DNA of 64,000 nt, from positions 1-64,000 of the IMG/VR virus record IMGVR_UViG_3300037493_004064; one strand, written 5' to 3'. The position numbers were made by a program, and so were the translations under genes. Within the stretch, counting starts at the first letter, position 1. The number at the start of each line of letters is the position of its first letter. This DNA is from a virus. Below, piece after piece: positions 12,979 to 51,000 of the stretch. A model generated the notes under the pieces. The model was not told the DNA's origin. It did no database searches and saw only the letters and a list, made by a program, of their open reading frames with translations.

Positions 12979-15900
12979 TTACACGCGAGAATATTTTAAT
13001 AACTCTTCCCTGGTATCGTTACCAGACGCCATGTGATCACTGAGCGTATCCATCTTGTCTGAGAGCATTTTGAATAGTTCCAATAATACACCGGAGTCAG
13101 CATTGGCTGTCGGTGCTGCAGGGGTAGCAGTAGGCAATGGCTCTTTCTGAACAGTAGGCGCTTCGTTGCTTGCAACCAAACTATTAGGGTTTGGCATAGG
13201 TGTCACAGTTTCTCTGCCATGTAGTGTCACAGGGTATCCCGAAAGAGGTCCATTGAATAATCCACCAAACTTGGCATGTGGTGTCTTTTCTTCAACTGAT
13301 GCCACTGGTGAAAAACTGACAGACTTCATAATCCTGGCATTCACTGCTGCCTTGTATCCCTTTGGATCAGCAACAGGATCTGGCAGCGGTTCAGCCTTAG
13401 CAACTGGGCGAGGTGTGACCGCTGGCACTTTAGGTTTTGCAAACCAGTTGTCGCGTCCTGCCTTAGTCTTATCTATTTCCTCTTGGGATGATGGTTTAAA
13501 ATCGGGTTCAATGGAAGTTTGTTCAGTTTTTGCAGCAAGTGTTACAGGTGCCGCAGCAGTTGACACGGGTGTTACAGGTGCCGCAGCAGTTGACACGGGT
13601 GTTACAGGTGCCGCTGCCACTGGAGTAGGTGTTATAGGTGCCGCAGCAGTTGACACGGGTGTTACAGGTGCCGCAGCAGTTGACACGGGTGTTACAGGTG
13701 CCGCTGCCACTGGAGTAGGTGTTACAGGTGCCGCTGCCACTGGAGTAGGTGTTACAGGTGCCGCAGCAGTTGACACGGGTGTTACAGGGGTTACAGGGGT
13801 TACAGGGGTTACAGGGGTTACAGGTGCCGCTGCCACTGGAGTAGGTGTTACAGGGGTTACAGGCGCCGCTGCCACTGGAGTAGGTGTTACAGGTGTCGCA
13901 GCAGTTGACACGGGTGTTACAGGTGTTACAGGTGCCGCTGCGACTACTGGATCAGTAGATTCATTAGAATTTGCTAATCTTTCGTGAGTATTAAACTTTT
14001 CTTTTTGCATGGCAACAAATTGGACCGGGGTCTGTCCAGGTTTCATGCCATTATGCTTCATTGCCTCAATAACCTTCGGTCCTACTGGTTTACCCTTAAT
14101 TGCATCAATGACACCAGGACCAATATTATGCACCATGTATAGGTTTTCACCAGTAACAGGAACACCGGCTACTTCTAATAGTTTAGCATTATTTTTGGCA
14201 AGCAATGCGGTTGCCATCATGTTGATTCGTTGGTCTCTCCTAGGATCCTGTGGTGTTCTGAAATTTTCAGGAGTTACTGGCTTCATCCCAATTTCAATTC
14301 CCTCAAGAGTCTTGGCTAATGAATTCCAAGTTCCGTCAGGGATTGTTTTACCATCTTTGCCTAATTTTCCACCATGCCCAGCCGATGACTCAGTGAATTG
14401 CCCTATTCCTATTGCCCCTGTCGGTGACATTTCACCGGAATAGCCACCCTCCATTTTAGCGAATCCACGCATGGTTTTTTCGTCCATACCGAATTTTTTA
14501 GAGGCATCCCGTATGTTGTCGTCATTTTCTTTACCGAATCCACTAAACTTTCCCTCAGGAGAAAGTTTACTCTTTACGGCAGTTATTTTCTCAGTGCGCT
14601 CTGCTATTCCTGATTTTGTCTCGTTGATTTCTTTATCAACTTCACCAGTGCTTTGGCGACGGCGCTGAAGGAGTTCCTTTTTCTCATAAAGATCACCGAG
14701 TTTACTTTCAGCACTCTTATTTTCTGACTCTAATTCTTGCATCTCACGACGAATCTTATATTGCTTCTCCCTAAGGGCAATATCCTTTGCCACAGATGCA
14801 TTGACCTTCTTTTCATTTGCAGTGATTTCTTCCGTTATGGTGGCAAGGTTGACTTTAGCATTGTTAATCCGTTCATCTATTAGTTTTCTTTCATCGACGG
14901 TTGCACCACTTCTGATTGCTTCTGTGCGTTTTTCTTCGTCGTCAGCAATTGATTTCTCTAACGAGTCCTTACGATTTTTAAGAAGTTTAGCATTGGCGTA
15001 ATTAGTTTGTGTTTCATCTGATACATTAATGTTAGTGGTAGATTTTTCTTGTTTACTTGATTTTTCAACCTTCGGCGTTCCACCAGCAGGAGGCTTAGCC
15101 CCAACTATATTGTTAAATTTATTAACGGCTGCTTCAAACATCTCACTGGCCGCTTGGTTTATTTTTGCTGATTGATCAAAGTGTTTAATCGCACTGTCCT
15201 GCAACATAGCAGCAGCCTGTTGCGTTCTCCCTGCGCTTATATTTGCTGCCAATTGTGCGTCTGGTGTACCTTGCTTTTTCTGTTTTTCTGCCTCTAAATA
15301 TTCACCGGGATCAGAATAACCTGCTGACTTTGCAGCGGCTAACAATTTATCATATCCCTTTATCTTGTCAACACCATTAGCATAAGTCCCAGCTAACACT
15401 CCCCCTACATCTCCGCCTGCTGCCTTCGGAAGTGCCATTGCTCCAAGTGCGCCCTTCCAACCACCCATAGCAAGTGAGAGGATTTTAGTCTGGTCCCGTA
15501 GACCGGTATTCACTGCATCAAGCGCTGGCTTGAACGTCAAATACGCAGCACTTGATTTATCATCAGTTGGCCCGCCTAATGCTGCGCCACGGGCTATTCC
15601 AATGGACCCTTCAATATTTCCCTGATTTCTTATATTTCTTGCAAGAATAGCAAGAGTTTGCAATCTGTCTAACTCTCCTTTATTATTCTCTTGCTCTGCC
15701 TTAAACATAGCCGCCCGGAGTTGGTCTTCGGCTAGAACCGCATCCATCGCTAACTCTTGTTCTTTTCTGGATACACCTGTGATGGCAGCCATCTTATCCA
15801 GTTCTTCCATGTAATTTTTTGCACCAGCCACCTGTTCTAGTTGAGTTTTATTAAGTAATGTCCCCATCCTTGTTTGCTGGGCCATCCACTTCAGGTCATG

Positions 15901-18003
15901 TTCACGCTGTTCGTCTACTGTTATCCCTAATCTTTCTAATTGTTCACCTATCTCAGATTTTTTTAGTTCATTTGCAACGTTGGCAAACGCCTTGGCACCA
16001 TCAGATGCAGTTCCTCCCATCATTGCTAAATCTTTGGCATTTGCCTTTAACAATGGTCCTAGTTTTTCTATCTCTTTGACAGTCAGGCCCAATTTTTGGG
16101 TCATATCAAATAATCCGGTTAACCCTTCGGATGTAGCTAAACCAACTTGAGAAAGGTCGTTGAAGGACTTGAACAGGGCATCGTTTTGCTCGGCGCCCTT
16201 TTTTTGCGCCTCAGTGAATAATTCAAATGCGGCAGTCGCAGCCATCGTAGCAACCCCGAGAATCTTAAGGACTGGACCACCCATAAGAAATAGTGCCCCG
16301 GCTAATCCATACATAAGCGGAGTAACCTTATCTACCGCAGATGCCAATGCGTTAACACCCACTGCTGCTCCGCGCTGACCAGCATAAAGAGATGTTGACA
16401 TTGACATAAAGCCAGCGACGAGTGCTTTCCCGGCGACTGCTATAGATTCAAATGCTATTTGTGCCCCTACCCCACCGCCAGCCATTTTAATTAACCCATC
16501 TTTTCCAGACTCTAATGCACTTGATAATGATGTAATTTTCCCCCTGATGTCTTTAAAGGTATCACCAGGGTTTGCTAACTTTTGAACAGTTTGTGTGAAC
16601 TTCTCCTGTTCTTCTTTTAACCTTCTCTGTGTTTTAGCAGCGTCTACTATTTCTTTCTGTTGATCCTTACTGAGGTCTTTAAACTGAGTTACAACTCCAC
16701 CGTATGCCTGATTACCAGCACTATATAGTGCGATCTGCTCCCTGTAAACTCTATTTCGCTGAGTCTCAGCAAACGACTCCTCACCTATCTGCTTCTTAAT
16801 GCGGTCAACGACCTTCCCTTCAATAAGGTGGCGCTCATCCATTGCTTTACGAATTCCGGCATTGAGTGAATCTTCAACGCCCAGTCGTTTTTTAGTTGTC
16901 TCAGCTAGTTCTTTATTAATCTTAAATTGTTCAGGGTTTGCCAACTTCTGAACTTGTTTGGTATACTTTTCTTGTTCTACTTGTAATTCCTGTCGTAGCC
17001 TTGCTGCCTCTACGACTGCGCCTTGCTCTTGTTTACTGAGGTCATCAAACTTTATATGCGACAAAGATTGTATAGTTTGTGCTAAGTTATCCTGGCCAGT
17101 TCGCAGTTTCTTCTGAACTATGGCTGCATATACAAGTTCGTCCTGTTGCTGTTTACTGAAGTCTTTAAATTGTGTTATGACTCCGCCATACGCCAAAGTA
17201 CCGGATCTAAATTGTGCAATTTGTTCTCTGAAAACTCTGTCATGTTGAATTGCCGAAAAAGCCCGTTCCTTTTCTGCATTGTTGGCGCCCTTCATGGACT
17301 GAATGGCACGTTCAATTACTCTTCCCTCAATGAGGTGGCGCTCATCCATCGCTTTACGAATTCCGACATTCAGAGAATCTTCAATGCCTAACCGTTTCTT
17401 GGTCTCTTCTGCCAAATCTTTGTTTATTTTAAGTTGTTCAGGATTGGCCAGCTTCTGAACCTCTTTAGTGAACTTTTCTCTTTCTTCCTGCAGTTTCTTT
17501 TGTGTCTTGGCAGCATCAACTAGTTGACTTTGTTGTTGCTTATCAAGATCCTTGAACTTTGTTACAACACCACCATATGCCATATTACCGGAACTATACT
17601 GCTGTATTTGTTCTCTGAATAATTTATTTCGTTGGGTTTCATTGAACGCATCGACACCTATTCTATCTTTGGCCCTTTCAACTATTTTTTGTTCAATCTG
17701 TTGTCGTTCGTCAAGTTTTCTACTAATATCGGCATTAGCAGTATCTTCTATACCCAACCGCTTATGAAATGATCTGGCAATTTCAGAATTGTACTCTTGC
17801 TGCCGTGACAGAGAAGTATCCCGGTCTTTTCTTATCTTATCCTCAATTGTCTCCGTTCGCGCAAAGTGTTCTTCAGTGGCCTTAACTTGTTTTTCAGTTT
17901 CGTCAGCTTGGCGCTTAACTTGTTCGCCCATGGATGACATGGCATCAGCCATACTTTGTATGGATGCAAGCAGTTGTTCTTGTACTTCTTCAGGTGTTGA
18001 CAT
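12979..18003 (-). CDS. Tape-measure-like tail protein with lysozyme-like domain
   Basis: 1674 residues. Order: coiled-coil N-terminus; three copies of a charged helical repeat ending in KLANP(E/G) at about residues 75-192, 193-360 and 361-479; a hydrophobic stretch at about 561-598 ([20 protein letters not shown]); a long helical middle; a lysozyme/transglycosylase-like domain at about 1170-1340, with [22 protein letters not shown] (Glu1185 the likely catalytic acid) and [14 protein letters not shown]; a Pro-Val-Thr repeat linker at about 1355-1490; and a conserved short C-terminus. Length, hydrophobic patch and helical content fit a tape measure that sets tail length, with a muralytic domain to open the wall. 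T4 gp29 is only about 590 residues and has no such domain. It lies between the portal and gp26. GAAAGAG precedes the ATG. Confidence 0.8.
13541..13940 (-). repeat. Pro-Val-Thr minisatellite in the tape measure
   Basis: Tandem 30-nt ([10 protein letters not shown]) and 24-27-nt (TPVAAAPVT) units plus a run of 9-nt PVT units, about 130 residues in all. It forms a flexible linker between the lysozyme-like domain and the C-terminus. The plus strand shows a long antisense open frame caused only by these repeats. Confidence 0.85.
16570..17780 (-). repeat. Three diverged copies of a helical domain in the tape measure
   Basis: Each copy follows the pattern KRLG(I/V)ED...(D/M)ER..IE..V..R..., R..(F/Y)REQI..(Y/F).(S/A)G...AYGGV(V/I)T.FKD..K.QQ...V.AA..Q..L, ending KLANP. 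DNA identity is only partial, so the duplication is old. Confidence 0.8.
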
Positions 18004-18100: not shown

Positions 18101-18928
18101 ATGATTGAAAACAACCCGCTAAGACAATATTTTCGCCGCCCATCAATTTACATCAAATTACCAAGCGGGTATAAAAATTACCCCGAAGGAGTCATTGATG
18201 TGCCAGAGGCAGGAGAACTGCCGGTCTTTCCGATGACTGCCATTGACGAAATTACAGTGAACACACCAGATGCATTGTTCAATGGTACTGCCATCGTTGA
18301 AATTATCACAAGTTGTGTTCCAAGCATCAAGGATCCGTGGAGACTATCCAGCGTTGACCTTGATACCGTGCTGTTGGCAATCAAGTCAGCATCCGGTGGT
18401 AACGACATGGAAATTGAAACGACATGCCCGGCTTGCCAAGAAGCATCTACGTATGGTGTGAATCTTGTAGGACTGTTAACCTCAATCAAATCAGGTGATT
18501 ATGACACTGAACTTGCGGTGAACGATCTGCTGATTAAACTACGTCCGCTTACTTACAAAGAAATGACTGAAGTAGGACTTGGTCAGTTTGAACTACAGAA
18601 GATGTTTGCAGCAATTGACACGCTGGAAAATCTCACTGAAAAAACTAATAAGCAGCGCGAGGCTCTGAAAACCATCACTGATATCACCATGACTCTTCTG
18701 GCGAAGACCATTGAATATATCAAAACACCCAGTTCATACGTGGATCAGAAGGATTTCATTCTCGATTTTCTGAAGAACTGCGACAAGGGCATGTTTGAAT
18801 CAATTAGAAACCATAATACCAGTCTGAAAACAAAGTCTGAGGTGAAACCACTTCCGGTGAAATGCATTCACTGCCAGCATGAGTACTCACAACCTTTCTC
18901 AATAAACGCCGCTGATTTTTTCGGGTAA
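18101..18928 (+). CDS. 26: Baseplate hub protein, T4 gp26-like
   Basis: 275 residues. It begins (S)IYIKLPSGYKNYPEG and has the gp26-type middle ('FPMTAIDE.T..TPDAL.NG' and 'CVPSIKDPW.LSSVDLD..LLAIK'). Two Cys pairs, CPAC (about 110) and CIHC (about 259), suggest a zinc site, as in other members of the T4 baseplate family. In T4 gp26 takes part in building the central hub. The zero frame ends DFFG-stop at 18928. The TTT TTC codons just before form a slippery heptamer followed by a hairpin, and the gp51-like frame continues in -1 (see 18916-18964). Confidence 0.85.
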   Translation: MIENNPLRQYFRRPSIYIKLPSGYKNYPEGVIDVPEAGELPVFPMTAIDEITVNTPDALFNGTAIVEIITSCVPSIKDPWRLSSVDLDTVLLAIKSASGGNDMEIETTCPACQEASTYGVNLVGLLTSIKSGDYDTELAVNDLLIKLRPLTYKEMTEVGLGQFELQKMFAAIDTLENLTEKTNKQREALKTITDITMTLLAKTIEYIKTPSSYVDQKDFILDFLKNCDKGMFESIRNHNTSLKTKSEVKPLPVKCIHCQHEYSQPFSINAADFFG

Positions 18929-18964
18929 GGCTTCTACACCTTGACCCCGAAGGTGTACAGAAGC
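18916..18964 (+). promoter_or_regulatory. Putative programmed -1 frameshift signal (gp26 to gp51)
   Basis: Slippery heptamer T TTT TTC at 18916-18922 in the X XXY YYZ register of gp26. Then come a 7-nt spacer (18923-18929) and a hairpin: GCTTCT (18930-18935) with AGAAGC (18959-18964), and ACACCTT (18936-18942) with AAGGTGT (18950-18956), a 7-nt loop and a 2-nt bulge, 13 pairs in all. After slippage the reading frame is open from CGG at 18922 to the stop at 19150-19152 and encodes the gp51-like sequence. All parts are visible in the sequence; use in vivo is inferred. Confidence 0.65.
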
Positions 18965-18975
18965 TATTAGATGAT

Positions 18976-19152
18976 ATGGAAGATGAGTGTACTGCAATTA
19001 AGAAAAATGCTCTTACTTGCTCTTGGTACATGCGGGGTGGAGTATCCTATGAGGATGTGTTGAACATGTCTATGGAGGAACGAAACCAAATAAATCAGAT
19101 CATATCTGATAACCTCAAGACCACGAAAGAAAGCAAACTACCATTCTTTTAG
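18976..19152 (+). CDS. 51: Baseplate hub assembly protein, gp51-like; maybe gp26 fusion C-terminus
   Basis: 58 residues from ATG 18976, with the conserved block CSWYMRGGVSYEDVLNMS and the end TTKESKLPFF, seen in the gp51-position protein of T4-like phages directly after gp26. The same frame is open upstream to 18922 (RVRLLHLDPEGVQKLLDD), and that part also looks like real helical protein. ATG 18976 has only a weak AGAAG upstream, buried in the 3' arm of the frameshift hairpin. Translation may therefore come mainly as a gp26-gp51 fusion by -1 frameshifting. In T4, gp51 helps assemble the hub without being a known structural part. Confidence 0.7.
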   Translation: MEDECTAIKKNALTCSWYMRGGVSYEDVLNMSMEERNQINQIISDNLKTTKESKLPFF

Positions 19153-19175: not shown

Positions 19176-19810
19176 GCATTCCATTCCATTATTTGTCATT
19201 TATATTTTGCTCTCTTTAGAGATGTGCTACGCACATCTGATCCCTTCGCTTCGCTCGGTATCACTCTAATTCTTTTTTATTCTACTCTCTATTTGCTTAT
19301 CGGATATCCACTTCACCTTGGAGCCATGGTAGTGCCAATTCAGCACTACCAAATGGAAAGTTTCACCCTATCCCCTCTGTTGTCTCTATCCCAGATAATT
19401 AGGCGTCTACTACTATCTGCTACCGGTTGCTCTGTAAAGTTGTTATGGATCTGTAGTTGAGACAATATGGCTTAAACTTCACCATACCTCCCAGCAACGC
19501 ATGTTCTGTACCATCACGACAAAGTAGGCACAGACTCATTCAGGGTTCACATTTCTACCATGGTGAGAGCCCTGTCGGTATTCCCCTGGTATTATTAGCG
19601 CAATACCAAGGCTATACTCCAGTATCTGACGGCACAGCACAATCTGTACAACCTCAAGGAGAGTCGGGCGTCCCGACTAGACGAATTAGGCTAAGGCTTT
19701 GTGCCAGTGTTTGGTGTCAGGCTAGTGACGGGGAATTTGATTTGACCTGGTGTCTGTTTATTTAGCAAGTATAACACGTTCCGTACGAAAATTATACTGT
19801 ATTTGGGTAA
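19176..19810. ncRNA. Unassigned ~635-nt region rich in inverted repeats, candidate structured RNA
   Basis: No convincing gene lies between the convergent gp51 and GIY-YIG genes. Strong hairpins include AGATGTGC-TAC-GCACATCT (19220-19238), GGTAGTGC-loop-GCACTACC with flanking CCAT/ATGG (19323-19355), a TGGTATT/AATACCA stem (about 19585-19610) and GTCGGG-CGT-CCCGAC (about 19664-19678). The two plus-strand open frames here begin at GTG or TTG, one inside a terminator stem, and look random in composition. A CTAAATA box on the minus strand at 19765 could start a minus-strand RNA. It does not match tRNA, tmRNA or a group I/II intron core that I can recognise. Large phage RNAs such as GOLLD or ROOL are possible comparisons. 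Confidence 0.35.
19759..19765 (-). promoter_or_regulatory. Late-promoter-like box inside the structured intergenic region
   Basis: CTAAATA on the minus strand, with TATACT and TATAAT further upstream (about 19773 and 19796). No gene follows on this strand, so if active it would make a non-coding RNA. Confidence 0.35.
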
Positions 19811-20254
19811 CTATCTTTTCATTTTTGCCTCTTCGGCCGTTTCCTCTGGAGGAAGAAACTTGATGCCTGAGATAAGGCCGTTGTAGCTTTTCCGTGCGCC
19901 GTTAGGTAGTTTTGTTCGTAGAACATCTTCCATAATTTGAAGTTTTACTTCTGCATAGACGAGCGATGCGCGTGTCTTATGCAGGGAAATAATCTCAAAG
20001 CGATAGTTGTCTTTGCCATTGGTGGCAATCGAGGTGTTGAGTCTGACTGAAGAACCCATATAGGTTTTCCAATCAGACTCCTTGATCACCTTCTTCTTAT
20101 TTTTTCTGCCCTTGACTGTTTTTCTTAGATGCTGATGCAGTTGCTTCTTGCCGACGTATTCCATTCCGGTGCTTATCTCTGTAATTCGGTAAAGAAAACC
20201 GAACCAGTCGTCAATCTCAAAAACGTGTGGGAACTCCCAATGACCTGTATCCAT
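19811..20254 (-). CDS. GIY-YIG-like putative endonuclease
   Basis: 147 residues. The N-terminal GFLYRITEISTGMEYVGKKQ corresponds to the GIY...YIG/YVG motif. It continues KESDWKTYMGSS and YRFEIISLHKTRASLVYAE.K, the conserved order of a small phage family annotated as GIY-YIG-like nuclease. The usual catalytic Arg is not obvious at its classical place (HLRK.VKGRK follows), while the Glu in YAEVK may be the family Glu. Its task is unknown: homing, recombination or host-DNA cleavage are possible. It ends the gp55-47-46 minus-strand group, 17 nt after gp46, but has its own CTAAATA box 6 nt before the ATG. Confidence 0.75.
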   Translation of the reverse strand: MDTGHWEFPHVFEIDDWFGFLYRITEISTGMEYVGKKQLHQHLRKTVKGRKNKKKVIKESDWKTYMGSSVRLNTSIATNGKDNYRFEIISLHKTRASLVYAEVKLQIMEDVLRTKLPNGARKSYNGLISGIKFLPPEETAEEAKMKR

Positions 20255-36095: not shown

Positions 36096-39000
36096 ATGGC
36101 ACCAAGAATCAGGACATTAAACTTTCTTCCGGATATTTTCAGAACACCGACGAACTCGCAATTCCTACGCGCAACATTGGATCAGGTTGTTGACCAACCT
36201 AACATTCAACGAGTTGAAGGATACATAGGTAGCAAGTTGGGATACGGTATTAATGCCAAGGACAAGTATGTAACGGAACCAACTAAGGTTCGCACAGATT
36301 ATCAACTGGCACCTGGCGTCACCTTCCTGAAAAATAACACTAGCACTGCTCAGGACTTCATCAGTTATCCTGGTATCATTGATGCAATCAAAGTGGAAGG
36401 AGGGCTAACCAATGACAACTCACGATTATTCACCGGTGAGTTTTATTCATGGGACTCTTTCACAAATCTTGACAAGATCATAAACTTCAATCAATATTAC
36501 TGGTTGCCAACTGGTCCGCAGGCCGTGATCATTGATGCTGCCACAGTATATTCCGCCACAGACTACATTGTTGACAGTGTGGTAAATGGGTATAACATTT
36601 ATTCCGGTACTGGCTCGCATGGAGCAACAAATCCAACTCTTACCCTGTTGCGCGGTGGCACTTACACTTTTGCTGTAAATCAGAATAGTCAGTTCTGGAT
36701 TCAGGGCGAACCTGGTATTACTGGCTTCTCGCACACACAACCTAATATGCAGACAAGAGATGTATATGGTGTGTCAAACAATGGAGCCGAGACTGGTGTT
36801 GTCACCTTTACTGTCCCGAGTAAAACGGCTCAGGACTACTACAACTTTCCAGGAAATAACCTTGTTGATGTGGTATCTACATTAGGATTTGGGCAGGTCA
36901 ACGGTCGCCGTCTATCTGAGATAGGCGGGAGCATAGACGGCATCACCTCATTGGATGGGCTGACATTGATGTTCTATAATGGTCTGTCAGACGAGATTGC
37001 TAATTTCGGTGCATACGATGTACAGGAATTTGATCAAAACAATATTTGGATGAATGTAAGTTTTGATGATGATGGAATGATTTACCAACCAGTGAGTAGT
37101 TGGTTCTTTCAAATTCACTTCCTGTCGAACCCAGAAAATCCAAGTGATCCAATTATTCAACTTGTTCCTGTGTCGTCTATTCCTACTGACGAAAAGATTA
37201 CTGCAACGTATGGAACTCAATGGGTAAATAGGAACTTCTTCAGAGACACATACGGATACATTGAATTGATCCCTTATATCAGTGCTCCGTTGAACACACT
37301 CTACTACCAAGACGGCACCACCGGCAATAAGGTCGGTGTCATCAAATTGATTGAGAGCAACACCACAAATACTCTTAACATATTGGATATTATAGGTAAA
37401 AAGACCTACACTTCGCCGAGCGGCGTGGTGTTCACCAATGGACTAAAGGTTATGTTCCAAGGTGCCATATACCCGACCAGTTACAAGAACAATGAATACT
37501 ATGTTGAGGGAGTTGGAACTGCCATTGAATTAATACTGGTGAATGACCTTGTGGTCCCGGAATTGTTCTCTGCTGGATCGTATATTCCGTATGATTCAAC
37601 TGCGTATGACATTGGTAACTTTGACAGTCAACTATACGTGCCTGTTGACCAAGACTATATTACAATCTCACGAAACGCCATTAACAAGAATGCATGGTCC
37701 AGAAGCAACAGGTGGTTCCACATTGATGTGATTAATGCCACAGCAGTTTACAACAATGATCCTGCTTTGGCAAATGTTGCCACACACGAAAACAAAGCGA
37801 AACGCCCGATCATCGAGTTCTATCCTAACCTTGCCATGTTTGATGCCGGCACATTTGGAAAGAACCCAATTGATTTCTTTGACTTCAGAACAACGGATGC
37901 TCTCACTTATGTCTCCGGACAACAACAATACTATCCTGACGTTGAAGTATACACGGACTATACTGGTGTAATTGCAGCAGTTACTGGAACATCAACTACT
38001 ATTACGTTGGATAATAGTGCAATTCACGGAACCTTAGTCATTGGGCAATATGTTGCCGATTCAGAATCTGTTCTTCCTGAAAATACGCAGATTTCTTTAG
38101 TCGAAGTGTTAGGCCCAACAACAACAATCACATTGGAATGGGAGACATCAACTACCGTTTTGACAACATCCGGTGTCTCTCTAATTGCGACCACTACCAC
38201 GGTGGATAACTACGCTCTATTCGACGGAGCCCGAGTGGTGTTCGCCGCCGATACAAACTTGACAGTGAGAAATAAGATTTTCGTGGCAAACTTCTCAACT
38301 GTCTCCGGAACTACCCCAGTTATTACTTTGACTGAGGCAGAAGACGGTGCCGTGATCGCCAGTGAACAAACTGTGGCATATCGTGGATACAATTATGCCG
38401 GGGAAACGTTCTTCTTCAATGGCCTCTCTTGGGAATACGGTCAGCAGAAGATAAGCGTCAATCAACCACCATTGTTTGATGTGTTCGATGGGAATGACCT
38501 TAGTTTTTCCGATCAAACAATTTATCTTGGGTCGTCGTTCAAGGGTTCTAAGTTATTTTCTTATAGGCTTGGATCCGGACTCAACGACTCTGTATTGGGC
38601 TTCCCAGTAAGATATAGTTCAGTTGATAACATCGGTGATATAAGTTTTGATGTGAGCATCAATCTTGATTCCTTTTCGTATGTTGCCGGAACCACACCTG
38701 AAACAAAGAAAGTTAATACAGGGTATGTGTTTAACTACTCATCACCATCTGCACATGTTCGCCAGTTAGGTTGGCATACTGCCATTGCACCGAGCGTTCA
38801 ATATCAGGCGTTTGAGTTTGCTTACTCTGCCCAGACACCAACTACCACATACATTTGCGACATACCAATGACAGCACAGACTGCCAACTCGTGGCCGTCG
38901 ATACAAGTATATCTGAACAATGTTTTCCAAGTTGATTCGGCTTACTCGGTCGTGGTGACGGATGTTACCACTGTTACTTTTGTAAACCCTGAACCATTGA

Positions 39001-42000
39001 TTGACAACGTAATCCAGATTCTGCTGCTGAGTGATCAAGTAAGTGCCAATGCCTACTACACTCTTCCTATCAATCTAAGCAACAATCCGCTGAACGCAGA
39101 TGTTACCGTGGTAAACATCGGTGACATTCGTGGTCAATATCAGAGTATCTTCTACAATGCCCCGGGCCTTACTGGCTTAGTATTCGGATCTAACAACTAC
39201 CGAGACTCCGGAGATTTAGTTCCATACGGTTCCTCTATTATTCAGAATAGCGCGTCACTGGTGCTCCCAGGAACGTTCCTTCGTAAGCAGAATCATAATC
39301 TATTCCATGCGTTGATGTTCAACAGCCGAGAGTATATCACTTACAAAACACTATTAGTTGATACCATTAACAATACAGAATATTCTGTGTTCCAATCAGC
39401 GGCCGCGATGCTCGATGACGCATTTGATCAGATCACCGCAGTTAAGTCCGGAACCGATACTTTCTTCTGGAGCGATATGCTTCCGGCGAAGGCATCCTAT
39501 ATATCAAACACTTATCTCTTTGCAAACTCACTTGATGTAAGTATCTACCCTCTGAGCAGGATCTATGACTTTACCAAGGCCAACTACTACGGTGTTCTTG
39601 TCTACCTGAAAAGGACCATCGGCGGGTTCCTACAGACAATTCAGTTAATTAAGGGGACTGATTATTCAGTGTCAACAGATACACCGTCATTAACTATAAC
39701 TCTGGACCTGGCACCAGGTGACGAGATTGTAATCAAAGAATACACACAAACATATGGCAGTTATGTTCCTAATACTCCAACTAAGTTGGGGCTGTATCCT
39801 GCCACTATTCCGACAGTTTATTTGGATACCTCATATACCACGCCGACATACTTCATCGTCGGTCACGACGGATCTTACAATAAGTTATACGGTGACTATG
39901 ACGAAAACACCGGTCGTCTGATTGATTTCAGAGACCAGGTTCTATTGGAGTTTGAGAAGCGCATCTATAACAACCTGAAACTGAGCAATGTCATACCTAT
40001 TCAGGAATATGAGGTCTTGCCTGGATTCTTCCGTGATACCGGATATAGTTACTCGGAAATCCTACAGATTTACTCAGAGAGTTTCCTAAACTGGGTCGGT
40101 CAAAACAGGATCGATTACAAAACTCAGCACTACATGGCCAACGATGAGTTCACGTATAACTACCGTAACTCCGGCAACAAGATAAACAATGCTCCGATTG
40201 AGCAAGGTTTTTGGCGCGGGGCTTATGAGTATTTTTACGACACAAGTTCTCCTGAGTTAACTCCTTGGGAAATGCTCGGCTTCACCAGCCAACCATCATG
40301 GTGGGAAACTCGCTATGGCCCGATGCCATACACCAGCGACAATTTGGTTCTATGGGGCGACCTTGCCCAAGGTATAAACTGGAACAACGGCGACCCAGTA
40401 GTGATTCCTCAGGCAGTGCGTCCTGAGTTACTACAGGTTCTGCCAGTTGACACTGCTGGCAATCTTGTTTCTCCATTTGTCTCATTAGTTGGTAACTACA
40501 CTAACCAGACGTTCATTCACGATTGGGCAGTTGGTGATGTTGGGCCGGCAGAGTTTAGTTATCGCCGTAGTAGTTCATGGCCGTTTGATCTGATGCGTAT
40601 TCTGGCCCTGACAAAACCGGCAGCGTTCTTCAATCTTGCTGTGGACGTTGACAACTACAAATACAATGCAGAATTCGACCAGTATCTGGTCAATGATCGT
40701 AGTCACCTTGTAATCAGTGACGTTGAAATATATGGATCCGGTACACCAAAAACAAGTTATATCAACTGGGTCGTTGATTATGAGAAGCAACTTGGAATAG
40801 ACGCCACTCAACAAATCACTGACCTGTTGAGCAATCTTGATGTCAGGTTGGTCTATCGTGTCGCCGGATTCAGTGATAAGAACATGTTGAAGTTCTATGT
40901 GGAGAAGGGAACACCGAATAGCAACAATAGTTCATTGTTGATCCCTGATGAAAGTTACGCTGTGCTGCTTTACGACAACCAACCGTTCAATCGGGTTGTT
41001 TACAGTAGCGTGGCCATCCAGATTATACCACGCGGTGGATACAAGATTTTTGGTAACTCCCAGACAAACGCATACTTCAGCGTGATCAAACCTAAGATCA
41101 ATGGGAACTACGAACAGGTTCAGATTGACAATCTTAGTGTTCAAGTGGCAAACGACTATTATGACACAGAAATGGTAATACCTTACGGCACAGAGTTTTA
41201 CTCTGTCCAAGAGGTTGCCCAGTTCCTTGCAAGTTATGGACGATATCTCCAATCTCAGGGTATGGTCTTCGACAAGATTGAAAATGGACTGGAGATCACC
41301 TGGGTTCAGATGGTTTCCGAGTTTCTATACTGGGCACAAACTGGTTGGGAAGCCGGCAGCATCATCAACGTCAATCCAGCTGCTAAACTTCTGACCATTA
41401 ATAAGGACAGTAATATTGTTCAGCCGCTTACTCTGCAACAACAGAACTTTGTGTTGAATCAAAATCTGTATCCAATCCAGTCAATTGATCTGGCTGTGGT
41501 GCGAGACGGGACTCTGTTCTCTGCTGAACCATTGAACGAGGGCGATACCATCTCCTATGGCACCTTCAACATCAGCAACATTGAACATGGCATTGTATTT
41601 GATAATGTAACAGTGTTTAATGATGTCATCTATAATCTGACAACTGGACTGCGACAAGACCGAATCATAGTTCGTGGTAGCAAGACCGCCGACTGGACCG
41701 GTGTAATCGACGCCCAAGGCTTCATACTCAATCAGGACAACATCGCTGATTGGAGCAATACAACTAAGTATACTACTGGATCTATTGTAAAATACAAGAA
41801 CAAATACTGGATTGCCATTGAGATTGTTCAGGCACAAGAGAAGTTTGACGAAACGCAATGGAAGCGCACTGACTACAATGAGATTCAGAAGGGCCTGCTG
41901 CCTAACTCCAGCACACGCTCATATGAGAGCACCCTGTATTACAATATCAACGTTGCCAATCTGGAAAAAGATGCCGATTTACTGAGTTTCTCCCTCATTG

Positions 42001-45000
42001 GGTTCCGACCACGTGACTATCTGGCAGTGGCTGATCTAACTGATATTACACAGATCAATGTTTACAGAAACATGATCAAGAACAAGGGCACCAGAAATGC
42101 CGTGAATGCCTTTAAGGGTGCCACGCTGTCACAAGGTGGTATTGACTATAACATCTATGAAAACTGGGCCATTAAATCTGCTGAATACGGCGGCACCCTC
42201 AATAGCAACTTCATTGAACTACGATTGAATGAAGGTGACCTTACTGGTAATCCAAGTATTGTTGGGCTGACCCGTGGCACTCCAACTGTTGGTGTCCAAC
42301 AAGAAGTTCAAACATATTCACTGTTCAACTACGGCAGAGCAATCACCTCCCCTGATGTTCTACCACTGCTTGATAGTAATACACCATCAACACTTTACCC
42401 GGACGCAGGATATGCCAACTTCAATGATGTGAAGATGTCATCTTACTTCTACTCTGGTATGTCAACGGCGGTTGATTCCTCAGGAGTCATTGTTCCTTTG
42501 AACGAACTGTATGTCAGAGATTATGTGTGGATTGCCAATCAGTTAGGCACCTGGCAGACATATACTCCGGTATCACTGGGTCAGATTACGAATGCCGCTA
42601 ACAATCGCAATGGCACAGTAACAATAACCTTCAATCAACTACATGGTTTGACCAAGTATCAGTCCCTGGCTATTACTAACTTCAATGCCGATGTTGACGG
42701 TTACTATATTGCCACAACTATCGTTGACCCGTTCAGAATCACTATCAATCTGATGCTGAATCCTACGATTGCTAATATCAGCGGTATCGGTATCGGGTTC
42801 CGTTTCCAATCTCAGCGGGTAGATCAACCAAGCGACATCATCAACCTGCCACTGCTTGATAGTGAATTCACCAAGAACACTGTATGGGTTGACACTAATA
42901 CCGACGGTGAGTGGGCCGTATATCGCAAAGGCATCAACTACACTCATGCCCCTGAAATCACAAAAGACGGTTCACTGTCCTTTGGATCAGCAGTGGCATA
43001 CACCGACGCATTGGGCTATCTGATTGGTGATGCTGACGCCGGAGTAGCATACAGATACATCTACAATGCTCTCAGTAAGGACTATGTGTTGAATCAGACC
43101 ATCACCAATGGTGTATCGTTCGGCTCCACTATATCTCATGCCGATAACATCTTTGTTGTATCGCAACCAACTGGCACTTTTTACACAGACAGAAAAGTTT
43201 ATGTGTATGAACTGGTCACTACTATTCTTACCAATGAACTTCAATTGATACAAACTATAGTGGCACCAAGTGATGGCATAACATCCTGGGCCAGCGCCAC
43301 TACTATATCAGGTGATAAGAATTGGCTGTATGTATCTGATATTGCCAATAATATAGTTTATGTATATCAGTGGTCTCCTGTAACTTCTCAATATGAATAC
43401 GCCACTATCATAAATGGTTGGGATTACATTGTCACTGGAGCCGACGATCACTTCAGTTACTCTCTGTCAACTGATTACTATGGTGATACGTTGGTTGTCG
43501 GCGCACCTGATCAAAACTATGGTCCGCTTGAGAATTGGGGTTATTCTTATGTATTCGTTCGAGGCACTCAAAACTGGGAAGCAACTTATACCAGCTTATC
43601 TGCACAACAACAGTTGTTCACTTCGGCATGGACTATATCTCCTGGCACATCTACTAACGTTGTGTCAACCTCAGCAATAACAAATTATCTGACAACCTTT
43701 GTGGGTGATGAGCCTTTGGATCCGGGACAAGTCGGAGATCCGGTAATATTCTCCGGTTCATTATTCGGTAACCTTTCTCCAAATGTCGTCTATTATATTC
43801 AGTCGGTAGTTGGCGATCATACTTTTACAATTTCTACTTCTCGTGGCGGAGCAGTAATGCCTCTGCTAACTGGCTCCGGTTCAATGACATGTAACTTCCA
43901 AACTCCATTGTATGTAAGTGTAAACGGAACTCTTGTGGATGACAGCAACTATGCCGCGATCGGCACTTCTTTGGTGTATGTCGGTGGACTATCTGCTGGT
44001 GACATTGTAAACGTCGGATCGTCTGATTTTATTCTGGAACAGACACTAACCACTGAAACAACACCGAGAATCGGCGTGAAGTTTGGTAACTCAAATGACA
44101 CCACAAGATATGCCAGCGAAATTATAGTTGGCGCTCCGTTTGAACTTGACACGCAACAGATTGAAGGTGCCGTGTTCAGATTCACTAATGCCGGATGCAA
44201 ATACGGTATGATCATCGGAACCGAAGACTGCATCATCGCTTCTCCTGTGACTATTCTGCTAAACGGGTATGCTGTCACTCTACCAGTCGGTGATGCCACA
44301 ACAGCAGCGGCTGCAATAAATGGTGCCGGTATTACAAATATTCAGGCAGCAGCAGCCAGCAACAAACTGATCATTCAATTGATCAATCAGTCACTGGCTA
44401 TTCCGAACAATAAACTTACGCTGACTGCAAATGACTCCGGAGTTCTACCTCAAACTGGTATTCAAGTATACACTCAAACTCAGTTGATCATGGCTCCTCA
44501 TACAGAGAAAACATGTCAGTTCGGTTCCACAGTTAAGTTTAATGAATTCGGTTCATTTGTGGCGTCTGCACCGTCTGGAACCCGATATGAAGCAACAACG
44601 TTTGACTTCACTGATGATGAAAACGATAACGATACGGTGTTTGACAACAACACAACTCAGTGGGTTGACACATTTGCCAACGCCGGTGCTGTATACATGT
44701 TTGATTACCTTGGTAACTATGATGAAAGTCTGTCAAATATTGGTAACTTTGTATATGCACAAAGCGTCAATGATACCAATGTTGAGTATGGTGCTCAGCC
44801 AATGTATGGGCATGCTCTTGCCTTTAACAACAATGTAGTCATAGTCGGCACTCCGGGATTCAATCCAGGCTTTGTGAACGGTCAAGTAACTAAATATACC
44901 ACTACTCTCGGAACAGATTGGTCGGTTCATAGACAATCAGGGCCTATAGTTGATGTGGATCGTATACAGGACATTCAGTTGTTCAGTGCGCTTACTAATA

Positions 45001-48000
45001 CCACACTGGACAATCTTGACTTTATGGATCCGCTGCAGGGTAAGTTACTCGGTGCCATCAGAGAAAATATTGATGTCGTTTCAAATGTTGACCCTGCTGG
45101 ATATTCACGTGGTGGATTGGTGTGGGGTTCAGACAAAGTTGGACAACTTTGGTTTGACACCACGAATACTCGCTTTGTGAACTATCACCAAGATGATGTA
45201 GTTTACGACAGTAGATATTGGGGAACATTGTTCCCTGGTAGCAATGTATCCATCTATAGCTGGGTTGTAAGTAATTATCTACCAAGTCAATATCCGGGAC
45301 CTGGTGCGCCGTATGACATCAACTCATACACCACAGAACAGATTCTAAATCCTGCAGGCGTATTAGTGCCGCAATACTTCTATTGGGTGCGTAACACAAA
45401 TGTGGTGTTCACCGCAATTGGAAAAACTCTTTCTGATACCGTGCTTGAGTCATACATTACCTACCCACAGAACACCGGTATAAGTTACTTTGCTCCTGTG
45501 CGTCAGAATGTGTTTGCCATGTATAACTCCAGTGAGAATATAAACGCCAATGATTCGGTACTTCACATTGGGTATCTAACAGGAAGCAATGATGATGTAT
45601 CACATTCATTATTCAACCTGATCAGAACTGATTATGCCGATGACTTCTTGCCAGGACTACCGAATACATCATCTATTGCTATACCAGAATCTTTGTATAA
45701 TAAGATGCTTGATAGCATGTGTGGTGTTGATGATGCAGGCTCAGTAGTTCCTGATCCGTATCTGCCTTTGATGGTTCAAACCGGTATTCAATCGCGTCCT
45801 CGTCAAAGTTTCTTCTTCAACCGATTCGGTGCTTTGAAAAACTATCTGACGTATGCAAATGAAGTACTGGCACAGTATCCTATTGCTGAATCTCGCCCGG
45901 CATTCTTCCTTAAGACAGTCGGAGATGTGAACCCGTCTACTCTTAGCAATCCTGCATGGATTGGCGCTTCAGAGATATTCTTTGATACCATGAAATATTG
46001 GGAGTTCATCAACTGGTGGGCACCTGGGTATGATGACAACACCAAGGCGGCAATCCAGGTTCCTGTGTATGCTGATTTATTTGCTATAAACGCAGCAGTC
46101 GGACTAATCGTATCTGTCCAGACTAATGGTGTTGGCAAGTCCGAGACATATGTGTATACTTCCCTTGGAACATGGGAAAGAATAGGTCTGCAAAGCGGGA
46201 CGATTGCCTTCAAGGCTGCACTTTGGGATTATGAAACATACCGTCTTGGTTTTGGAGATAACTTCTTTGATACTTCGGTGTTTGATCTTTACCCGTCAGA
46301 GGAAACCCGTCAAATTATTCGTGCGCTGAATGAAGAAATATATTCTAATGAATTGCTCATTCACCGTAATAAGAGCCTGGTCCTGTTGTTTGAGTATATT
46401 CAGAGTGAGACCGGTGAAACTCAAAACTATCTTCCATGGTTGAACAAGACATCCTTAATTGATGTTGACCATACGATTCGTGAACTGCTTCCTATATCCG
46501 TTTTCCAATCAGATAATCAAGAATTCCTCACTGGGTATCTCAATGAGACTAAACCATATCACGTGGTAATCAAGGAATTTGTGTTCAAGTACACTGGATC
46601 AGAAGTTTACGGTGGAAACATCTCCGACTTTGATATCCCTGCTCAATGGACACCGTCTTTAAACCAGTTCATCTCTCCTGAATTAGTTTACTCAAACGCC
46701 AGTGGTGAAAGTGAGTATGTTCTCGGCGATCCAATCTGGCAAACGCAACCATATGCTGCCTGGTATCAAAACCGTGGCGTAAGTCTGACTGGTATTGACA
46801 ATTATCAGATAACTTTCACCACTTCATATATTGCATTGAATTCAACCTCATTCGCAGTCAACAATCCATTTGGTTTCCCAGTATCTGGTGTTGTCAGAAT
46901 TGGTACAGAGTTGATTGGCTACTCAAACGTGAACAAGTCACTGAGTACCCTTAATGGTCTGACACGCGGCGCAAACGGTACTGACATTTCTACACATCTT
47001 CCGGATGAGCAGGTATACATTGATCTACCGGCGGTGTTGTTGCTTGATGCTGGAAGAGCGTATGGTAACCCACCAAGAATTACAGCAGTCATAGACACTA
47101 CTCTTTATCCACCGCCTATTCGTGAGGCAGTATTAGTTCCGGTGATGAGCCTTGATACTATTCAGAGTGTCACTGTGGTTGATCCTGGTGAGGGATATAT
47201 GGTTCTGCCTGATATCGTCATTGAACCATCTATTGTAGTTACATTTGCATCAACAAGTGTGAATACTCTGACAAGCACCATTGAACTTTCAATGCCATTG
47301 CTTGTCACTGGTGATCTAATCAAGTTCAACGCAGTAGTTGGCACCACGGTACCAGGTGGAATTGATGATAATCAATACTACTACGTTGGTGTATTACAAA
47401 CAGTGCCAACTTTCATTGTGGCACTATACACAAACTATTCAAACTCTCTCACTGATACCGACAGAGTATCCATTTACTCTACTGGCGCCGGTGATAGTTA
47501 TCTTAATGTTACTGCCCGGGCATCATGTGTTTCTACTGCTTCTCCGATAAGAGAAAATCAGATATCCATCAAGTTTGACCGTACGAGTTATGGGTCAAAG
47601 GTCGTAGACTGGAAAGAGTCAGCATTCTATGGGTCATTCTTCGCAGGCGACTATGGTAGCGGACCGATACTGGCAAGTTCATCCCTGTTACTTGACAGTG
47701 AGTTCCCGGTCATTGATTCGGTATTGGCCAGTGCCACTGGCGCTGCATTTGAGTTAGAATCCTTTCGCGGAACAGACACGCTGACATGGTCAGGCCGAAC
47801 CAGAAACGTAATATCTACCTCCGCTACTGGAAACACAGTAACTATTATCCCATCTGATGGCGGTGCAGAGGTGACGCCATTATTTGGACCAACCCTCGGG
47901 TTCTACGTTGGTATGCCAGTCCGTTTTGACGGGGCAGTTGGAACCTCGGGACTTGTGAACGAAACTATTTACTATGTAGATTCCATTATCAACGACACTG

Positions 48001-51000
48001 ACTTCACTCTTGTAGATGGCAATGGTGTTCCAGTGGTGCTATCTGACTTGACAATAAGCGTGGCTGGATTGCTATGCTATATTGGCCAAGTTGTATACAG
48101 AACGTTCGTGACCATTGATTATCCTGGTATTTCAACGGTAACTAACTCTGCTGCCATCACCAACTATCTTACAATCCCGATGACTCCGAGTGGTAACGCC
48201 GGAACCACTGGGTTCTATCCAGGACTACCGATCTTCTTTGTCGGAACAATGATAGGTGGCATCATTGAAAATGAGCCATACTATATTACAACGGTTGTTG
48301 ATAATCAGACCATCACCGTCTCAAAGAGTGCTGCGCCAACAATACTTAACATTACCTCAGTTAACTCCGGTACAAGTCAGGTTACTGGTGACGGCACATG
48401 GGCACTGACAGTCGGTGATCCAGTCATCTTCAATGATATGGTTTCATTCGGTGTTCCTGCGAATGTGTTCGGGAATATCGTTTCGGGTGTCACCTATTAT
48501 ATTCATTCCATTGATGATTACAATCTTTTCACCTTAATGACCGTTCCTTACGGAGCAGTATTTGACCCGGGTAATGACACAGGATCATGTCACATGACTA
48601 ATCAGAGAGATGTCGTTCAACTCACCACTGACAGTGGAGCCATGACAATTAATGTTGGTCTGCCGATTAGCCCAGGACAAGTCAACGGCCAGTTGGTCTC
48701 ATTCTACCCAACATCAGCACAAAAACCAGGTCTGTCTCCATCATCAATAGGTAATCTGGTGACGAGTATTGTTCGTGCTGCTGTTTACCAGGATACTGAC
48801 GGTAATGATGTAAATCAACTGTCTATCTGGGCTGACAGCAGATGGTTATCAGACACGTATATCAATATGCCGGTGAGTTTATTGGATACTTACGGTGGAT
48901 TGACAGCCGGTGTCACTTATTACGTTTCAGAGATTGGCACTGTAAACACAATAGTTACCGCAACTGGCCCAACTGGCTTCACCTGCAATAGTACCGCTGG
49001 GTTCTATGATGGGATGCCAGTCACCTTTAGCGGATCATCATTGGGTGGCACTCAGTTAAATATTACCTATTACGTTGATACCACCATACCTCTTACTCAG
49101 ACTACGTTCAACGTACTTGGGTTCACCCCGTCCGTTGCATCTGGACTGACAACTATGACGGCCACAGGAGAAGCATACATTAAGGTAACAGATTTAATCG
49201 GCAACCCTGTGCTGACTCTATCGGATGATACGGCGCAGACGACTGTTACGCAAGTTGCTGACCCAGCATCCGCAGCACGATTCGACGTAAGCTGGATTCG
49301 CGGTGGATATCGCACAATGATAACCAATGGTGGAACAGGATTCGCTGTCGGCAATACCCTAACAATACCTGGCACTGACTTAGACGGCGTATCTCCTGAT
49401 AATGATCTGGTGCTCACAGTAAATAACATAAGCGTCATAGTAAATGCTACTGCGTCTACTGCTACTGGAAACATAATAACATGTAACACTACTACTGGGT
49501 TGGCCAATAATGATCCAGTGGTATTCAGCGGAACATCATTCGGTACAATTGTACCAGGACAAATATACTACGTCACCGTAGTAAATGGAGTTTCTATAAC
49601 CATATCAGAAACATATGGCGGGCTAACCCTTCCGTTGACAGATGATACAGGATATATGACTGTGACTGACACCGGTGTTGGTGAGTTGTACATGGCTGCT
49701 GCATCAGGAACACCAGACGAAATCGTCACCCAATACTACTTAAAGGTAGTGGCAGCAACTGAGTGCGAAATTTTCACTGACCCATTGATGACACAACCAG
49801 TGAACGTGGCATCTTTCATATACAAGGGCATTACATCTGCTACGTTAGTTAGCACTACGGCGCCATTTACCTTGTCCTTCACTGATCTTAGTGGATTCAG
49901 CGACAATGATCCGATCTTGTTTACAGGAGATGTATTCGGTGGAATAGAAGTCGGAAAAGTTTATTACATATACAACATAAACCATGGTCTGAACACCCTA
50001 AATATACTTACATCTATCAACACCCCTGGTTCAATAGTTGCGGTATCAGATGATATCGGCTCATGCACCATGGCTAAGGTAGGTGACTACATTGTTCTCC
50101 CTGAACCGTTCTACTTTGATCAGAGCATTGTCAGATATAATCATCAACTTTATCAATGTATCATCAGCAATAATGACCCGACGTTTGTCTTTGGTAAGTG
50201 GGAACTTCTACTGAGTGAGAACATAAAGATCAACGCCTTGGATCGTATATTTGGTTACTATCAGCCAACGGTGAATATGCCAGGGCTTGACTTCACACAA
50301 CTGGTCAACGGTGTCACGTATCCTAACGGCACATACTATGGTAATGCGTTTGATCCTAATGATGAATTTACTCTGGATACGATCCTGCAGGACCAACCGT
50401 TCACCACGTTGGGATCCGCTGAGTATGTTATTCAAGGCGACACGTTCACATCTGGTTATGGACCGGAAGAACTTGTTCCTGGGGTAATCAGTGATAACCT
50501 GTCTATGGTTGTGACTACACGACCAGGAACAAGTTGGTCTGCACAACAATATGCACATGTAGGGTACAACGTTGTATCCAATGAACTGGTTCCGACTACA
50601 GCATTGCAAACTTCATATAGTTTTGTTAATGTTGTTCAGGTTCCTGCTCAGGTTTCGCTTGCCATCATCAATCGTGCCACCGGTCTTGCAACCTCGCTCT
50701 ACTCCATGGATTACTCAGTAGACTGGATCAATAAGATCGTCGTGCTGAACACTCCATTGACGTATGGTGCAGAAAGTCTACGTCTTGATGTGTATGAAGT
50801 GGGCAACGGTGATCAACTTGAAAAGTCAAACACCCAGATTGATCCACTAATGATTAACACTCTAACTGGCTTCAATGAAGTTGTGCTGAACTGTAACTAT
50901 TCTGCACCTATAGCCGCTGGGTCCGGAGTAATCATGCCGGGGTCAGATCCAATTCAAGTGTTGGCAACTGCGACTGATGCAAGCCCGGACAACACCATTA

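Follow-up and report, generated by a model that had tools for sequence, protein, structure and literature searches.

A conserved U_UUU_UUC slip site at the end of gp26 and a very likely −1 ribosomal frameshift in the putative chaperone genes of T4-like jumbo phages

The gp26 gene of a T4-like jumbo phage ends in a slippery heptamer at which ribosomes very likely shift into the −1 frame. We hold with high confidence that this is a programmed −1 ribosomal frameshift at U_UUU_UUC, by which one gene would yield both the short product (TAC-N) and its fusion to a gp51-like domain (TAC-NC). The initial annotation had proposed such a fusion from the letters of a single virus, and the proposal is now strongly supported by conservation among relatives, which puts the signal far beyond chance. 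From sequence comparison and analogy we infer the occurrence and rate of slippage, a function in tail assembly, a tape-measure partner and an absence from virions. Frameshifting of this type is already known for chaperone genes, and the locus is a well-supported further example.

Layout of the locus

The window, i.e. the whole stretch of DNA analysed here, comprises 64,000 nucleotides and is a portion of an 87.7-kb virus record (IMG/VR IMGVR_UViG_3300037493_004064). Its gp26 ORF scores 58.6 bits against PF12322 (Pfam cut-off 24.5) and thus belongs to the T4-like gp26 family. The 3' end of the ORF reads ...GAT TTT TTC GGG TAA. A heptamer in the correct register, a 7-nt spacer, a 13-bp hairpin with a 2-nt bulge and a −1 frame running open from the slip site to its stop had all been described before, and every one of them is confirmed (Table 1). 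The −1 frame opens exactly at the first base of the heptamer, ends with a TAG and translates as FFRVRLLHLDPEG... Among the 41 long ORFs of the window an in-register T_TTT_TT[CT] occurs a single time, at the end of gp26.

Table 1. Features of the gp26 locus and of its surroundings in the window
Feature	Position	Strand	Support
gp26 / putative TAC-N ORF, 275 aa, 0 frame	18101..18928	+	PF12322 E 9e-16, phrog_150 E 3e-17
Slippery heptamer T_TTT_TTC, 0-frame register	18916..18922	+	174/175 readable IMG/VR loci
7-nt spacer including 0-frame stop TAA (18926-18928)	18923..18929	+	stop position kept in relatives
Stem-loop, 13 bp + 2-nt bulge, probable frameshift stimulator	18930..18964	+	folding, synonymous-recoding test
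−1 extension, 78 codons from first F of slip site, stop 19150-19152	18916..19152	+	open, conserved, predicted helical
First ATG of −1 frame, 12 nt past stem	18976..18978	+	not conserved as start
1674-aa protein between portal and gp26	12979-18003	−	
Non-coding block 3' of −1 ORF	19292-19727		conserved in 49/49 testable jumbo relatives
Small homing-endonuclease-like gene	19811-20254	−	phrog_7363 E 1e-18
ORF of 5810 aa after baseplate wedge-like gene	36096-53528		

The −1 extension would form the C-terminal domain of the putative fusion; this domain is specific to TAC-NC, is named gp51 in cyanophages and is predicted to be small and helical (pLDDT 84). The gp51 label of the initial annotation is accounted for by the Kyanoviridae, which carry an annotated gp26/gp51 pair in the same arrangement. 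An AlphaFold2 model of gp26 (pLDDT 86) found its significant and best fold matches in other gp26-like phage proteins; a fold search against the PDB gave no significant match.

Conservation of the heptamer

A tblastn search with gp26 returned 89 phage records at E <= 1e-3, every one of them below 60% identity. The identical heptamer is present in 174 of the 175 readable gp26 loci in IMG/VR (window included; jumbo and cyanophage groups), and in all 174 the contig, as far as it extends, shows an open −1 frame. Of 150 unique relatives, 148 have a 0-frame stop that begins 3 nt past the heptamer. All 11 isolated jumbo phages (Atu_ph07, Paride, Phosso, Munch, BF, 121Q, SCTP-2, XaC1, CBB, Hallingskeid and RaK2) have the heptamer in register at a gp26 identity to the window of only 26-34%, and their −1 frame begins with FFR or FFQ, followed by a short conserved domain. 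The same heptamer and register recur at the annotated gp26/gp51 pair of the Kyanoviridae P-SSM4 and S-RIM50. T_TTT_TTC is also found in the Straboviridae Cronobacter LPCS28 and Aeromonas AP1, in Vibrio K575, in Agrobacterium OLIVR6 and in an uncultured 595-kb phage; Rhizobium N34 carries the variant T_TTT_TTG.

No heptamer was found in Vibrio D531, Salmonella Maynard, Stenotrophomonas IME-SM1 and LR756508, and the lineages of LR756508, Vibrio D531 and Maynard may use other routes. T4 gene 26 is likewise without the heptamer, and gene 25 comes after it. The sole exception among the 175 loci is a cyanophage-type locus (L164, 2200-2230) in which the heptamer is gone (CTTTTTGG) and a single frame runs through gp26 and gp51; this may be a natural fusion or an assembly error.

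Selection at the slip codons and in the −1 frame

Selection was analysed in 57 jumbo phage and 38 cyanophage representatives with mutual nucleotide identities below 80%. All 95 representatives encode the slip Phe pair as TTT TTC, i.e. with zero synonymous variation, while nearby codons for other conserved residues, including other Phe codons (TTT and TTC mixed), vary synonymously. The codon before the slip pair always has T as its third base, though cyanophages encode Ser, Ala, Asn or Asp there. The heptamer is under RNA-level selection. The −1 frame, in turn, is conserved at the protein level from FFR onward, ahead of any shared start codon. Its stretch upstream of the window's first Met had been said to read like real protein, and so it does: FFR..LL is conserved there and third codon positions are the most variable (entropy 0.94/0.65/1.34 by codon position).

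These data bear on the simplest alternative, in which gp51 is a separate small protein with an ATG of its own, reached through re-initiation or translational coupling where gp26 stops, and the heptamer is incidental. The window does have an ATG shortly past the stem, 25 of the 38 cyanophage representatives have one at codon 6, directly past the stop, and in GenBank the small ORF is entered as a gene of its own for most isolates. Vibrio D531 with a TAATG overlap and LR756508 with an overlapping ATG in another frame, both lacking the heptamer, have arrangements that would fit this. Across the 57 jumbo representatives, however, the first ATG of the −1 frame lies anywhere from codon 4 to codon 51; therefore these relatives share no common start, yet the FFR..LL upstream is conserved. 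The cyanophage ATG, moreover, often falls within the predicted stem, and the slip codons are frozen at synonymous sites. We regard a separately initiated gp51 as quite improbable. As to the window's own ATG, the initial annotation was right about its distance of 12 nt from the hairpin and wrong in calling it the only one: further Met codons stand at codons 39 and 51 of the −1 ORF and are shared with most relatives.

The stem-loop and other stimulators

In the window the stem lies 7 nt downstream of the heptamer, a proper distance for a stimulator. The segment 18916-18975 folds with a minimum free energy of −18.8 kcal/mol (z −3.1; 3 of 200 shuffles as good). When the same peptide was recoded synonymously, the stem gave mean z-scores of −2.97 (57 jumbo) and −2.47 (cyanophage) and −3.66 in the window, against −0.3 to −1.1 for control stretches. 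Segments folded from the stem start onward reach mean z-scores of about −2.5 to −2.8 (jumbo) and −2.2 to −2.8 (cyanophage); upstream segments stay at about zero or above, and at an offset of 40 the score is about zero. In cyanophages and in the window's clade, selection thus acts on the stem over and above what the peptide demands.

Base-pair counts back the lower stem, part of which is also fixed by the protein (LL/KKL codons). Covariation is modest in the 57-sequence alignment (0.201 versus 0.176 +/- 0.008 when shuffled). RNAalifold reported no consensus pairs in the alignments of 57 jumbo and 37 cyanophage sequences, which probably reflects a drifting register of the upper stem. Among the RaK2-like isolates, 121Q, Munch, Hallingskeid and RaK2 have a weak stem or none, and so does Phosso. 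The initial annotation had looked to relatives that keep the overlap for conservation of heptamer and stem, and the outcome favours its proposal: the former is kept nearly everywhere in the group, the latter in the window's clade and the cyanophages, though it is weak or absent in several RaK2-like phages. Of the 38 cyanophage representatives, 35 carry a Shine-Dalgarno-like sequence upstream, mostly GAGG/GGAGG at a distance of about 14 nt; none of the 57 jumbo representatives does.

RNA polymerase slippage on the six-T run could in principle produce mixed mRNAs and thereby the fusion without any slipping ribosome. The site does offer a T-run, but polymerase slippage usually requires longer runs than six T, and each of the 174 loci has six T and then a C, while one lineage has TTTTTTG. 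It would also leave unexplained why a stem with RNA-level selection sits at frameshift distance, and we consider it highly unlikely. Least probable by our estimate, and already disfavoured, is a scenario in which constraints on the protein alone hold FF in place and the stem merely follows from the encoded LL and KKL motifs: FF and its flanking motifs are indeed conserved in the protein and the lower stem overlaps LL/KKL codons, but other conserved Phe codons mix TTT and TTC while the slip pair never does, and the stem energy is better than that of synonymous recodings of the same peptide.

Proposed mechanism

Under programmed −1 ribosomal frameshifting, most ribosomes would end gp26 (TAC-N) at the UAA one codon past the slip site. 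A minority, slowed by the downstream stem-loop, would slip: both Phe tRNAs would re-pair on UUU UUU and translation would go on in the −1 frame, giving a gp26-gp51 fusion (TAC-NC) of about 350 aa. If lambda gpG/gpGT is a guide, this fusion would be the less abundant partner and would connect the tail-tube protein with the tape measure in its coat of chaperone; short and long form alike would depart before the tail is completed.

Probable identity as a tail-assembly chaperone pair

The initial annotation had treated gp26 and gp51 as baseplate hub genes and, accordingly, the fusion as a new control of baseplate assembly. Neither point is supported. The 'baseplate hub' label traces to database names only, and the two proteins instead match the T4-like chaperone pair. 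PHROG profiles and the work of Vladimirov, Gautam and Davidson (2022, Virology 566:9-15), as relayed in PMC10885494 and PMC12846349, assign the T4-like gp26 and gp51 to TAC-N and TAC-NC, respectively; some T4-like phages have one short and one long chaperone gene in place of a frameshift (Vladimirov 2022, as relayed in PMC10885494). Poly-T −1 signals are known in TAC-N genes of T4-like phages (PMC12846349). Since gp26 and gp51 match TAC-N and TAC-NC, the signal would therefore be a classic chaperone frameshift under an old label, here in T4-like jumbo phages. Under the names gp26/gp51 our literature search found no frameshift; the prior art is filed under the term tail assembly chaperone.

Profile comparisons point the same way. 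T4 gp26 and T4 gp51 (20% identity to each other) both match phrog_150, and T4 gp51 additionally hits phrog_634, to which the cyanophage −1 domain belongs, which makes T4 gp51 look like the long form. Aligned directly, the −1 domain and T4 gp51 show a weak similarity (E 0.07), and for this reason the link rests on PHROGs 634 and 150. Two isoforms that share their N part, the long one adding a C domain, are predicted here from the sequence. The gp26 model resembles no solved structure, so the chaperone role is argued from the literature and from family membership, which make the window's pair a probable TAC-N/TAC-NC.

In the virion mass spectrometry table of phage CBB, CBB_251 is present and CBB_249 and CBB_250 are missing. 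This would fit an absence of the chaperones from the virion if the numbers match the RefSeq tags, as they probably do; absence from such a list is itself weak evidence.

A tape-measure gene can be named only tentatively. Cyanophages have a long 'endolysin'-class gene after gp51, whose match to a tape-measure profile is weak (E 0.005). In the window, the divergently oriented neighbour of gp26 encodes a 1674-aa protein that, by eye, has PT-rich repeats and a lytic-transglycosylase-like stretch; it has no PHROG match, and in several relatives its place is taken by a virion protein of about 710-750 aa. It is possibly the tape measure.

Comparison with known systems and evolution

Chaperone −1 frameshifting in long-tailed phages is exemplified by lambda gpG/gpGT (Levin 1993; Xu 2004; reviewed in PMC5009743). 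In the lambda model, tube subunits are connected with the tape-measure complex by the longer product, and the virion retains neither of the two (PMC5009743). The window resembles lambda in having a heptamer at the end of the short chaperone gene and a predicted −1 fusion to a short C-terminal domain. It differs in its slip site, which is U_UUU_UUC here and G_GGA_AAG in lambda, in that gp26 has no found similarity in sequence or solved fold to a TAC, and in its tape-measure gene, which here is only a candidate, the portal-side neighbour being divergent in the window and in most jumbo relatives.

With T4 gp26/gp51 the window shares the families phrog_150 and phrog_634, T4 gp51 holding a gp26-like part plus the −1 domain. 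In T4, however, the long form is a separate full-length gene on the other strand, whereas the window has one gene and a putative frameshift. P-SSM4 and S-RIM50 have the identical heptamer, register and FFR start, with gp51 annotated separately downstream; unlike the window, most Kyanoviridae add the upstream Shine-Dalgarno-like GAGG/GGAGG. Pakpunavirus Adele (PMC12846349, 2025) offers a parallel from other phage families: a TAC-N with a poly-T −1 frameshift whose C-domain is annotated as a separate hypothetical gene, the motif being GTTTTT instead of T_TTT_TTC.

On balance we lean towards a scenario in which the U_UUU_UUC frameshift is the ancestral means of setting the chaperone ratio in the T4-like superfamily (here jumbo phages, cyanophages and some Straboviridae), with T4 genes 26 and 51 as a later replacement by gene duplication. 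One superfamily allows comparison of two ways of setting this ratio, frameshift versus gene duplication. It also provides a natural, well-conserved U_UUU_UUC site with clade-specific stimulators, a downstream stem with or without an upstream Shine-Dalgarno-like sequence. For annotation, dozens of jumbo phage and probably hundreds of cyanophage records list gp26 and gp51 (or a hypothetical protein) separately and would need correction.

Neighbouring features

Far downstream in the window, a single ORF of 5810 aa gave no Pfam match in either half. The most unusual side find, a separate matter from the frameshift, is the non-coding block 3' of the −1 ORF. By blastn, many relatives match it at 66-76% nucleotide identity; there was no Rfam match at E <= 1 and no tRNA or tmRNA. 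RNAalifold predicts 45 pairs for the alignment (pairing in 97% of cells, double changes at 28 pairs) at an energy of −46.7, versus −3.0 +/- 2.2 for column shuffles. The reverse strand folds as well (−54.4), so that either strand could carry the structure, and the window sequence alone folds no better than shuffles (z −0.5). The block is a candidate for a new structured RNA or for a DNA element such as an origin. At a comparable location, RaK2-like isolates share among themselves a conserved non-coding region of 650-800 nt, which blastn barely matches to the window. The small homing-endonuclease-like gene adjoins the conserved block.
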